64,000 nucleotides of DNA from NCBI RefSeq assembly GCF_013267195.1, contig NZ_CP053941.1, forward strand, positions 930,001 through 994,000, in the 5' to 3' direction. Both the position numbers and the translations under genes were made by a program. This stretch comes from Halorubrum salinarum (GTDB taxonomy: Archaea > Halobacteriota > Halobacteria > Halobacteriales > Haloferacaceae). The number at the start of each line of letters is the position of its first letter. Positions within the stretch are counted from its first letter, which is position 1. Shown piece by piece: positions 3,405 through 53,326 of the stretch. The notes under the pieces were generated by a model. It was not told where the DNA came from, did no database searches, and saw only the letters and a program-made list of their open reading frames with translations.

Positions 3405-4420
3405 CGGGGAGCGGTGTCCTCCCGGCCGCGGCGGTCACGCTGCTCGCCCCGCTCGCCGTCGCCGTCGCGCTCGACCTCGCGGTCGCGGAGCCGCCCCGGC
3501 GGGTCCACCCGGTCGCGCTGTTCGGGCGCCTCATCGGGCCCTTCGACCGCGAGTGGGGGCGTCCGGGACTCGTCGGCGCCGCGGTCGCGGTCGCGCTCCC
3601 GCTGGCCGCGGCGGCGGCCTGCGGCGGAGCGGTCCGCCTCGCGGCCGTCTACGGCCCCCGGCTCGGGGGGGTCCCGGTCCTCGCCGTCCCCGTCGCGGCC
3701 GCCGTCTGCTTCTCGACCGCGAGCCTGCGCATGCTGCTCGACGTGACGGGCGAGGTGGTCGCGGAGAGCGAGGCCGACCCCGACGCGGCCCGGGAGTCCG
3801 TCCGAGCGCTCGTCGGCCGCGACCCCGCCGCCCTCTCGCCGGCCGACCTCCGCAGCGCCGCGGTCGAGAGCGCCGCCGAGAACCTCGCGGACGGGTTCGT
3901 CGCGCCCCTCGCCTGGTTCGTCGCGGGCGCGACCGTCGCCGTCGCGCTCGCCGCGGCGGCGGGGGGCGCCGCCGTCCCGTCAGTCGCGCTCGCCGCCGGC
4001 GTCGCGGCCGCCGCCTGGGCGAAGGCCGTGAACACGCTCGACTCGATGCTCGGCTACCGCTCGAAGCCGGTCGGCCGGGCGAGCGCCCGCCTCGACGACG
4101 CCGCCATGTTCCTACCCGCGCGAGCCGCCGCGGGCTGTCTCGCGGTCGCCGCTCGGTCGCCCGGGAGCCTGCGACGGGCGCGGTCGCTGGCCCGCGAGCC
4201 CGCCTCGCCGAACTCGGGGTGGCCGATGGCGACGGCCGCGGTCGCGCTCGGCGTCCGCTTGGAGAAGCCGGGCGCGTACGCGCTCCCCGGGGGGCCCGAG
4301 CCGCCGACGCCCGCGGCCGCCCGTGACGCCGTGCGCCTCGTCGGCGCCGCCGGCGGGATCGCGGTCGCGGCCGCGGCCGGGTGGCTCCTCGCGCTCGCGG
4401 GGGTGATCGCGTGGTCCTGA
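3401..4420 (+). CDS. cbiB: adenosylcobinamide-phosphate synthase CbiB (membrane protein)
   Basis: Attaches the aminopropanol (phosphate) arm to cobyric acid. The 339-residue protein has several hydrophobic segments and the CbiB signature stretches RRVHPVALFGRLIGPFDRE near the N-terminus, ESAAENLADGFVAPLAWF in the middle, and KAVNTLDSMLGYRS. The GTG start at 3401 overlaps the cbiA stop (GTGA). It acts with CobD, which supplies aminopropanol phosphate, and CobS, also a membrane enzyme. Confidence 0.93.
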   Translation: MTGSGVLPAAAVTLLAPLAVAVALDLAVAEPPRRVHPVALFGRLIGPFDREWGRPGLVGAAVAVALPLAAAAACGGAVRLAAVYGPRLGGVPVLAVPVAAAVCFSTASLRMLLDVTGEVVAESEADPDAARESVRALVGRDPAALSPADLRSAAVESAAENLADGFVAPLAWFVAGATVAVALAAAAGGAAVPSVALAAGVAAAAWAKAVNTLDSMLGYRSKPVGRASARLDDAAMFLPARAAAGCLAVAARSPGSLRRARSLAREPASPNSGWPMATAAVALGVRLEKPGAYALPGGPEPPTPAAARDAVRLVGAAGGIAVAAAAGWLLALAGVIAWS

Positions 4421-50831: not shown

Positions 50832-52994
50832 ATGAGCATCGACATCGACCCGCTGCGCGAGGCCGACGGGATCACCGTCACGGACCACATCGAGAACACC
50901 CAGTTCGACGTGTACACCGACCGGCCGGTCGAGCCGCGACGACGGCCCGAATCGGACCACTACTTCCCGGTCGACGCCAGCGTCGCCGTCGAGACCGGGG
51001 CGATCGAGATCCCGCGCGTCGCGGTCGTCGAGACGCGCGCCGGCGACGGGACGCTGCTCACCCACGGCGACTGCTACACGATGCCGGACGGGACGTACCA
51101 CGTCGGGATCAACCCGGCGCCGACGAAGCTGTACCTCACCTTCGACGCCGGCTTCTCCGTCTCGACGACCGACCGGACCACCCGGATCGACCTCGACGCG
51201 CCGGGGACCGTCGGGCTCGGCTTCCGGTCGCTCCACCAGACGCCGGCGGGGACGATCACCGCCCCGACCGACCCCGAGTCGCTGATGGACGCCGTCTCGC
51301 TGCTCGGCTCCGCGCTCCAGACGACCAGTCCCGAGCGGTCGTTCCCCACCTTGCGGGGGCATCCTCCGCTGATCGAACCCGGCGACGAGTTCCGGGTCCC
51401 CGAGCGGGTTGAGCCCGTCGACAGCGGCGTTCGGATCGTCGTCCCGCCCGAGTACCGCTACCTCTACCCAGTCGTCTCGCTGGCGTACTACTTCGCGGCC
51501 GACGTGGTGCCGGGCGACGACCCGCGGATCGAGGGCGACGGGTGGACGTACCCGCTCGAACCCGGCTTCGAGGCGCGGACCGCCCAGGTGCTCAGGCAGT
51601 CGTTCCACATGGACTGTCTCGCCCGCACGGAGGGGTTCTACCCGGTCGACCTCCACGAGCGCGAGACGACCGGCCTCGACCTCGACTGGGGGCGGCTGTA
51701 CGACCTCCCGCTCGCGGAGCGGCTCGGCGAGTACCTCGACGTGCCCTTCGAGGCGGTCGAGCCAGAGCTGCCGCAGTGGACTCTGACGACGGACGTCCGA
51801 CCCGACCCGGAGAACGTGGAGATGCTCCCGTTCGTCGCGGGCGAGCTGTCCATCGTTCGCTCGCCGGAGACCGTCACGCCGGTGGAGGATGACGGAGGAG
51901 TCGGCGTCGGCTTCCTGGGCGGCGCGGACCGGAGTTCCGCGCGGGCGACGAGGCGGGAGGCCCCGGCCGGCGGCATCGGCCTCGGAGACGACGAGTTCGT
52001 GCGCGGCGGCGCGAGCGCGGCGGCCACCCGCGGCGCGGACGCCTCCGCGGAGCGCGGCGCCGTCGCCGCCCAGACCGACTTCGTCCGCCCGGAGCCGGTC
52101 GACACCGTCGAGCACGCGTGGGTCGGCGACGGCGTCCCGCTCGACGCGAACAAGGCGACGCTCGACGCGTACCACCGTCGGCTCGAAGCGGGTCAGGTCG
52201 AGCAGTCGCGCATCTCCGTCCTCGTCGTCTGTAACGACGAGCAGATGCGCGAGGAGGGCAACGTCGCCGACCTCTACGGGCTCCGCGACATGGTCCAGTT
52301 CGACATCGAGGTGCGCCACGACCTCACGCGCGCGGAGATGCGCGAGACCCTCGAATCCGACGTGGACTTCCTCCACTACATCGGACACGTCGACGACCGC
52401 GGGATGCAGTGCGCGGACAGCTACCTCGACCTGACCGACGAGGACCTCGAGATCGGCGTCAGCGCCTTCCTTCTCAACGCCTGCCAGTCCTACCAGCAGG
52501 GCGAGGCCCTGGTCCACCGCGGCTCGCGCGGCGGCATCGTCACGCTCTCCGACGTGGCGAACTCGCCCGCGACGACGCTCGGCCGGATCATCGCCCGCCT
52601 GATGAACAGCGGGTTCAACCTCCGCACCGCGCTTCACGTGGCGAAGCGCGAACTGATTACCGGCCACCAGTACATCGTGGTGGGCGACGGGGGGACGACC
52701 GTTTGTCAGAGCAGGAGCGGTGTAGCATTAGTAATCAATCTAAGAAATGAGAACAAATCAGGCTGGGATGTGAATGTTGGAACGTTCCCAAATGGCCCAT
52801 ATGGGGTAGGGACCATGACAACACTGAATTTAAACCAAGATGGCTCTAATCATATTGTTCCATCGACAATAAACATAACCTCAATAGACGATGAGGAGGT
52901 TGCTTCCTTCCTTGACCTGGAAAATACACCGATTTTTTACAACGGCGAATTAACTTGGAATGATAAGATTGAGACGATTAAGGACCGGGATTAG
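50832..52994 (+). CDS. CHAT-domain (caspase-like) protein with AT-rich 3' end
   Basis: A 720-residue protein. Residues about 1-370 are a beta-rich, haloarchaea-type domain of unknown role; about 375-430 is a Gly/Ala/Arg linker; about 450-620 resembles a CHAT clan-CD peptidase, with candidate His519 in LHYIGHVDD and Cys551 in LLNACQSYQQGEA, followed by GIVTLSDVANSPATTLGRIIA. From about base 52,705 (residue about 625) composition drops abruptly: 72 G/C in 180 bases counted at 52741-52800 and 52861-52980, against a strongly G+C-rich upstream. Amino-acid use turns to Asn/Ile/Lys/Thr. The reading frame is intact to the stop. Substrate unknown; CHAT proteases elsewhere take part in regulated proteolysis and cell-death defence. 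Confidence 0.78.
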   Translation: MSIDIDPLREADGITVTDHIENTQFDVYTDRPVEPRRRPESDHYFPVDASVAVETGAIEIPRVAVVETRAGDGTLLTHGDCYTMPDGTYHVGINPAPTKLYLTFDAGFSVSTTDRTTRIDLDAPGTVGLGFRSLHQTPAGTITAPTDPESLMDAVSLLGSALQTTSPERSFPTLRGHPPLIEPGDEFRVPERVEPVDSGVRIVVPPEYRYLYPVVSLAYYFAADVVPGDDPRIEGDGWTYPLEPGFEARTAQVLRQSFHMDCLARTEGFYPVDLHERETTGLDLDWGRLYDLPLAERLGEYLDVPFEAVEPELPQWTLTTDVRPDPENVEMLPFVAGELSIVRSPETVTPVEDDGGVGVGFLGGADRSSARATRREAPAGGIGLGDDEFVRGGASAAATRGADASAERGAVAAQTDFVRPEPVDTVEHAWVGDGVPLDANKATLDAYHRRLEAGQVEQSRISVLVVCNDEQMREEGNVADLYGLRDMVQFDIEVRHDLTRAEMRETLESDVDFLHYIGHVDDRGMQCADSYLDLTDEDLEIGVSAFLLNACQSYQQGEALVHRGSRGGIVTLSDVANSPATTLGRIIARLMNSGFNLRTALHVAKRELITGHQYIVVGDGGTTVCQSRSGVALVINLRNENKSGWDVNVGTFPNGPYGVGTMTTLNLNQDGSNHIVPSTINITSIDDEEVASFLDLENTPIFYNGELTWNDKIETIKDRD

Positions 52995-53109
52995 AAGCTG
53001 CCTGATTCGCCACCGCAGGCGCCGCCTGCGTTAACAGCAGCAGCGCGGTGAACAGGACGCCGGCCATTTTTGGGTGCTCTGCCAGGTAATCTGCGACACT
53101 TTCGTGCAT
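52978..53109 (-). CDS. 43-residue single-membrane-segment peptide, convergent with and overlapping the CHAT gene
   Basis: A short frame read from the minus strand: it begins MHESVADYLAEHPKMAGV, continues through the hydrophobic LFTALLLLTQAAPAVA and ends ASNPGP. It has one membrane-spanning stretch, a charged N-terminus and a short polar tail. I recall similar about 45-residue haloarchaeal peptides with a LAExPxMxGxLFT core (possibly called DUF7503), but this is from memory. It is G+C-rich within an AT-rich surround, has an AT-rich TATA-like box about 23 bases before the ATG, and its stop overlaps the CHAT 3' end by 17 bases. Likely a real small gene; function unknown. Confidence 0.65.
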   Translation of the reverse strand: MHESVADYLAEHPKMAGVLFTALLLLTQAAPAVANQAASNPGP

Positions 53110-53126
53110 ATTCGAAAAGTATCAGG

Positions 53127-53138
53127 ATAAATAAATAT
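53127..53138 (-). promoter_or_regulatory. TATA-like box of the 43-residue peptide gene
   Basis: The minus strand reads ATATTTATTTAT here, centred about 23 bases before the ATG at 53109. The surrounding 53110-53210 stretch is AT-rich and otherwise empty. Confidence 0.5.
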
Positions 53139-53326
53139 TGAGATTGTTCTGCGGTTGGATTATAGAGATGTTTGAACTATAAATTATCTGTATTAAATAA
53201 ACATGGCCGCTAAACTTCGAGAAATTGCCCGTTCTACCCCGATCGACAACGACCGAAAACCGCCGCTCTCGCGACCGTCACTGAAGACCGCGTTTTTTCA
53301 CCGCCCAGCGCGCAACGGACCGTGCC

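Follow-up and report, generated by a model that had tools for sequence, protein, structure and literature searches.

The window, that is the whole stretch of 64,000 nucleotides which we analysed, belongs to the chromosome of a Halorubrum species and carries on its forward strand, at 50832..52994, a gene for a protein of 720 amino acids which is kept across Halobacteriales. The Pfam CHAT score of the protein is 16.6 bits for a cut-off of 24 (its relatives reach 19). Its AlphaFold model (mean pLDDT 87.7, pTM 0.88) has a caspase-like fold with a His and a Cys at the strand ends and matches, over residues ~316-626, gingipain R (Z 19.9), separase (17.2), SAVED-CHAT (16.3) and Craspase (14.6). By this predicted fold the protein is a cysteine protease of the CHAT family in clan CD and, given the fold match, the score below the cut-off reads as that of a divergent member. 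A CHAT-like domain with His519 (codon at 52386..52388, forward strand) and Cys551 (codon at 52482..52484, forward strand) had been proposed in an earlier, sequence-only reading of this DNA; the fold agrees with it, and both residues are invariant in 30 Halorubrum orthologues and in 100 wider homologues. We saw no signal peptide on the protease, which is presumably cytoplasmic.

The gene falls into two parts. Its N-terminal domains and its protease domain, down to a GDGG motif (50832..52721, forward strand), are conserved, while the last ~90 amino acids (52722..52991, forward strand) form a hypervariable domain, our proposed specificity domain. The AT-rich 3' end noticed earlier is real: the GC content is 0.41 at 52722-53004 and 0.71 in the remainder of the gene. 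Folded alone, this C-terminal domain reaches a predicted pLDDT of 87; compared with the PDB it gave no clear match (best Z 4.6), which does not by itself prove a new fold. We rejected a recent gene fusion or insertion at this end, since the folded domain is present in all homologues.

On the reverse strand, at 52978..53109, lies a gene for a signal-peptide-like product of 43 amino acids. It matches the Pfam family DUF7503 (PF24335) with an E-value of 1.4e-20 and 73.1 bits for a cut-off of 27, far beyond chance, so that the small gene suspected from the letters alone is genuine. The TATA-like A/T element upstream of its start codon (53127..53139, reverse strand), also suspected earlier, recurs over 92 loci as a peak of A/T between about -25 and -35 relative to the ATG. 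In the same 92 loci a conserved [HN]-P-[RK] precedes the hydrophobic stretch, position -3 is always A or V (92/92), position -1 is A in 89 cases and G in 3, and a tail of about 8-9 residues follows, of which 1.2% are charged; 88 of the 92 tails end in Gly-Pro and 87 are distinct. In the window the n-region, the hydrophobic span and the A-x-A site occupy 53008..53109 and the nine-residue tail, NQAASNPGP, which we propose as a recognition ligand, 52981..53007 (both on the reverse strand). Judged by residue pattern and not by a trained predictor, this product looks like a Sec signal peptide that carries a very small passenger, and its processing is putative.

The family DUF7503 is present in 249 of 293 Halobacteriales genomes, and Haloferax volcanii has it too (control match); in a phylum-wide sample, all 44 DUF7503-positive genomes were Halobacteriales. 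The peptide gene is convergent with the CHAT gene in 30/30 of the Halorubrum orthologues first examined, and an adjacent convergent CHAT gene was found at 59 of 60 further DUF7503 loci from many genera, the exception being a contig end. Among 35 Halorubrum genomes, no complete CHAT orthologue is present in the four which lack the peptide, in one of these probably because of a contig edge. The Halorubrum pair sits in one fixed chromosomal place between housekeeping genes, with the same upstream gene in 47/47 loci and the same downstream region in 41/47, duplicates of one genome being counted among these 47. The CHAT-peptide pair is real and ancient. Partnership between the two products, as the sequence-only reading had supposed, is strongly supported by the conserved convergent order, by the invariant catalytic residues and by the joint exchange of the two 3' ends described below. 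Two results that would have refuted that reading, a peptide frame not kept beside CHAT and variable catalytic residues, were looked for and not obtained. The "two-part effector system" which it had put forward thus stands as far as the conserved pair and the partnership go; toxicity of the peptide finds no support, nor does functional antisense pairing of the two mRNAs: the two reading frames do overlap tail to tail by 17 bases in the window, but the stop-to-stop distance varies from -23 to +88 or more among orthologues and wider homologues and an overlap is often absent. With an overlap so variable and no match in Rfam, we rejected antisense RNA regulation.

Several related arrangements were met on the way. 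The genome of the window has only two CHAT genes, a count on which the search for silent cassettes in this species rests; the second (L161, 3257-5419) has an unrelated C-terminus and no DUF7503, and L171 is similar. Members of another CHAT subfamily (L162-L170) are in most cases followed by a conserved gene whose product starts xSNLLDxxIDDIL..., mostly with no recognised peptide; at L163 (13611-15986) a hydrophobic, unrecognised peptide that ends in GP comes directly after the CHAT gene, and L097 is likewise. A distant CHAT relative on a haloarchaeal plasmid, at L191, is annotated "caspase family protein" and has a convergent small hypothetical gene. The CHAT frames at L086/L187, L185, L068/L177, L144 and L212 are broken or altered and are either pseudogenes or assembly errors. 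Genome G207 has five dispersed, near-identical copies of a short element in which a DUF7503-like peptide (MARKALQNAVAQHPKAVGALFTSAVALSQVQSTLAVWGCGSLGP) is accompanied by the region upstream of it; no CHAT gene lies near the four copies examined (L199, L200, L201 and L202, at ~3450-3690). Finally, L208 and L209 carry diverged GP-ending peptides without recognisable CHAT neighbour.

Up to 12 copies occur per genome, with differing tails. These copies, and the vicinity of a small hydrophobic peptide and a protease, suit a system of the toxin-antitoxin type, in which a toxic peptide would be degraded by its cognate CHAT protease and diversity would insulate the paralogues from each other. However, exactly one copy is found in 46 of 52 Halorubrum genomes, which are equally diverse; hence the diversity can be explained without any insulation of paralogues. 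Since, moreover, solo peptides exist without CHAT (L199-L202) and the pair is near-core instead of patchy, we hold this explanation to be distinctly unlikely.

The main feature of the locus, which the sequence-only reading had missed, appears when loci are compared. In 34 close pairs of Halorubrum loci, the nucleotide identity remains at 0.87-0.98 through the CHAT domain, falls at window position 52722 to 0.42-0.67, and returns at ~53022, in the core of the peptide gene, to 0.93-0.99. The island so bounded (~52722..53007, spanning the 3' ends of genes on both strands) contains the codons of the C-terminal domain of CHAT (~90 amino acids) and the final 9 codons of the peptide gene, a cassette of ~300 bases whose left and right homology arms are the conserved parts of the two genes. 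The AT-rich end of CHAT and the peptide tail are therefore one hypervariable exchangeable block. Halorubrum pairs whose N-parts are 95% identical have C-parts which are only 33-46% identical; the dS of the N-part is ~0.2 in many pairs while the synonymous sites of the C-part are saturated (pS ~0.6-0.85). This means that whole alleles were replaced, and not simply that amino acids changed fast. We did not see positive selection in the form of dN>dS, the C-part being under purifying selection within allele lineages (pN well under pS) and dS being saturated between them.

The block is exchanged between species without its flanks, and trees of the gene parts before and after the boundary disagree. 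L001, L004, L012, L013 and L015, whose tails all begin with NQ, form a C-part clade with a bootstrap of 100. The N-part rejects this clade with an AU p-value of 2e-70 and a second C-part clade with 2e-63, while the C-part rejects two N-part clades (1e-5 and 4e-51) and does not reject one N-part clade of seven; these p-values are overstated, as the clades were named after the trees had been seen, though the log-likelihood gaps are large (119-343). The trees were built without L086, L185 and L068, whose frames are broken or altered. The alleles form supported trans-species clades (bootstrap 98-100), in a sample of one genome per species. The tail follows the CHAT allele: its residues need 62 changes on the C-part tree, 74 on the N-part tree and 92 +/- 3 when shuffled. 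A second family behaves in the same way, L159/L160 (C-part identity 0.83) and L108/L109 (0.74) each sharing one tail, whereas L159/L109, at 0.86 in the N-part but 0.36 in the C-part, have different tails.

One locus carries the cassette twice. In L207 (3433-7719) a truncated 3' fragment of CHAT, with a peptide of its own, lies behind a complete CHAT-peptide unit. Between the two copies the identity is 95% for 413 bp, up to and including the GDGG codons; in the ~325 bp that follow no nucleotide similarity can be detected, and from the peptide's AAA-N codons onwards the identity is 89% for 220 bp. L207 holds a displaced spare cassette, with the same borders as those seen between species; it is the one case, a scan of the other loci collected having given no second. 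Its flanks may act as natural homology arms for exchange, by analogy with orphan CDI/Rhs modules (PMC3150448) or silent cassettes.

Does this joint travel require any recognition between the tail and the domain? The two are adjacent, so that linkage alone would move both together, and the matching of distances between tail and C-part beyond linkage was not significant, either in a partial Mantel test (0.05, p 0.22) or in a nearest-neighbour comparison (22 vs 10, Wilcoxon p 0.17), both being crude tests on distance matrices. One could then suppose that the CHAT C-terminus and the tail are weakly constrained and diverge through a local recombination hotspot or a mutation bias, to which the AT-rich composition would also lend itself. 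The purifying selection on the C-part within allele lineages, the well-supported clades of alleles shared across species, and the retention of the Gly-Pro end and of the fold residues G660, P700 and W709 all argue against this, as does L192 (3008-3300), where two tandem duplicated peptide genes beside a single CHAT gene have retained the same tail: they differ by 12 synonymous and 0 non-synonymous sense-codon changes, 5 of the 12 lying in the tail. Since these differences are all synonymous, the tail is constrained within a genome, though hypervariable between genomes. This could also be a duplication under ordinary purifying selection, which counts against recognition; on balance we find divergence without recognition very improbable. 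At L128 two peptides share a GAGVTID tail, which is only suggestive, as the genome is incomplete and the locus lies where a contig ends.

We favour, as the probable reading, a two-gene specificity locus: a CHAT protease with an exchangeable C-terminal recognition domain, and a mini-gene for a peptide whose tail would be the matching ligand or substrate. Recombination in the conserved stretches on either side would bring about the exchange, the C-terminal domain would read the tail of 8-9 residues ending in Gly-Pro, and a matching or mismatching tail would turn the protease on or off. Physical recognition and an effect on proteolysis would thus be added to the pairing, the co-exchange, the constraint and the protease fold reported above. 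Two points speak against the proposal: once exported, the tail would stay apart from a cytoplasmic protease of its own cell unless it were re-imported or cells fused, and some diverged peptides have no adjoining CHAT gene (L199-L202, L208, L209).

As to the use of such a locus, allorecognition, pheromone and phage-sensing roles are all candidates, a released pheromone and a phage sensor being serious rivals. Hypervariable sensors are typical of defence proteins, and a C-terminal domain which tracks phage proteins would vary in this way; once triggered, CHAT would cut the membrane peptide, which would then damage the membrane, in a gasdermin-like abortive infection. CHAT proteases of matching fold do act in the Craspase and SAVED-CHAT systems, and fungal CHAT/gasdermin pairs as well as bacterial and archaeal gasdermin-protease clusters have been reported (PMC12881547). 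Yet a sensor of phages or elements leaves by itself unexplained that the peptide's 9 final residues vary together with it, the peptide has no inhibitory domain to be removed, the locus is fixed between housekeeping genes, and a search for known anti-phage systems gave no PADLOC match up to E 1; this role therefore seems to us unlikely. We found no phage or viral homologue of the locus and, the synteny being fixed, rejected a mobile or viral origin, though distant relatives of CHAT occur in 25 PLSDB plasmid records (from Halorussus, Haladaptatus and others).

Stronger, though still rather doubtful in our judgement, is the case for a peptide pheromone: signal peptidase would free an uncharged peptide of 8-9 residues ending in Gly-Pro, which would re-enter, or be read by, cells of the same pherotype, with CHAT as an intracellular receptor-protease. 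The textbook signal-peptide pattern, the scarcity of charges in a short C-terminal tail and its near-invariant end would suit such a role, as would the resemblance to the pherotype loci agr and comQXP, where a hypervariable island likewise lies between conserved flanks. Against it, the cleavage is putative, a non-systematic look beside the locus revealed no importer or downstream regulator as conserved partner, and the literature searched contained no archaeal precedent.

For the two-gene specificity locus itself, the most likely use would be self/non-self or kin sensing, either at haloarchaeal cell contact and fusion or through a released peptide. Allorecognition is attractive because mating by cell fusion has been reported for haloarchaea (PMC10085750, PMC7838353) and because in the fungus Aspergillus a CHAT protease gene, hetB, whose idiomorphic alleles are ancient, has a part in incompatibility at fusion (PMC11138114). 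That the locus serves archaea as a self/non-self or pherotype system, in which a swappable CHAT C-terminal domain reads a co-swapped tail and sets cell compatibility across haloarchaea, has in our estimation not quite an even chance.

The comparison with known systems is instructive. In agr and comQXP, a hypervariable island extends over the ends of neighbouring genes with matched specificities, between stretches of conserved DNA. The CHAT locus has such an island between conserved flanks, but neither a histidine kinase nor a peptide-modifying enzyme, and the protease would be the receptor. With the fungal het loci (Aspergillus hetB, Podospora het-Q1/het-Q2) it shares a protease-based locus and ancient trans-species alleles with a narrow footprint of divergence (PMC11138114, PMC12881547); the fungal alleles are however whole-gene idiomorphs, the fungal partner is a gasdermin or an uncharacterised protein instead of a signal-like peptide of 43 residues, and incompatibility is demonstrated there while the haloarchaeal locus is known from sequences. 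As in CDI/Rhs toxin-immunity systems, an exchangeable C-terminal domain is swapped as a module with its adjacent partner, and orphan modules occur downstream (PMC3150448, PMC3482391); unlike them, the CHAT locus has no large secreted or repeat scaffold, no toxin C-terminus and no immunity protein, its protein being compact and of protease type with a constant catalytic domain, and its partner a short convergent peptide of which only the tail varies. Craspase (TPR-CHAT/Csx30) and SAVED-CHAT have the same protease fold and His-Cys dyad, but no CRISPR genes lie at our locus and the tiny hydrophobic peptide is no Csx30-like substrate. In CHAT/caspase-gasdermin pairs a caspase-like protease gene also adjoins a membrane-protein gene, but our peptide has 43 residues with one hydrophobic span and no gasdermin-sized pore-forming domain with an inhibitory tail. 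The logic resembles that of known polymorphic recognition loci, and this combination of parts fits none of them. In the literature searched we found no mention of DUF7503, nor of "CHAT domain" together with "haloarchaea", an absence which is not proof. High caspase-like activity has been reported in Haloferax volcanii, a genetic model (PMC3615174).

What the locus offers is a possible function for DUF7503, a near-core Pfam family of unknown function. If our reading is true, we know of no earlier allorecognition or peptide-pheromone system in archaea, and cell-cell recognition outside eukaryotes would gain a link to a caspase-type protease. Cells of haloarchaea fuse, and DNA passes from one species to another. 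With its near-universal fixed place, its polymorphism of the recognition type and its caspase-like protease, the CHAT-peptide locus is a concrete candidate, ready for knock-out, for what may limit or guide this fusion and this interspecies exchange of DNA.
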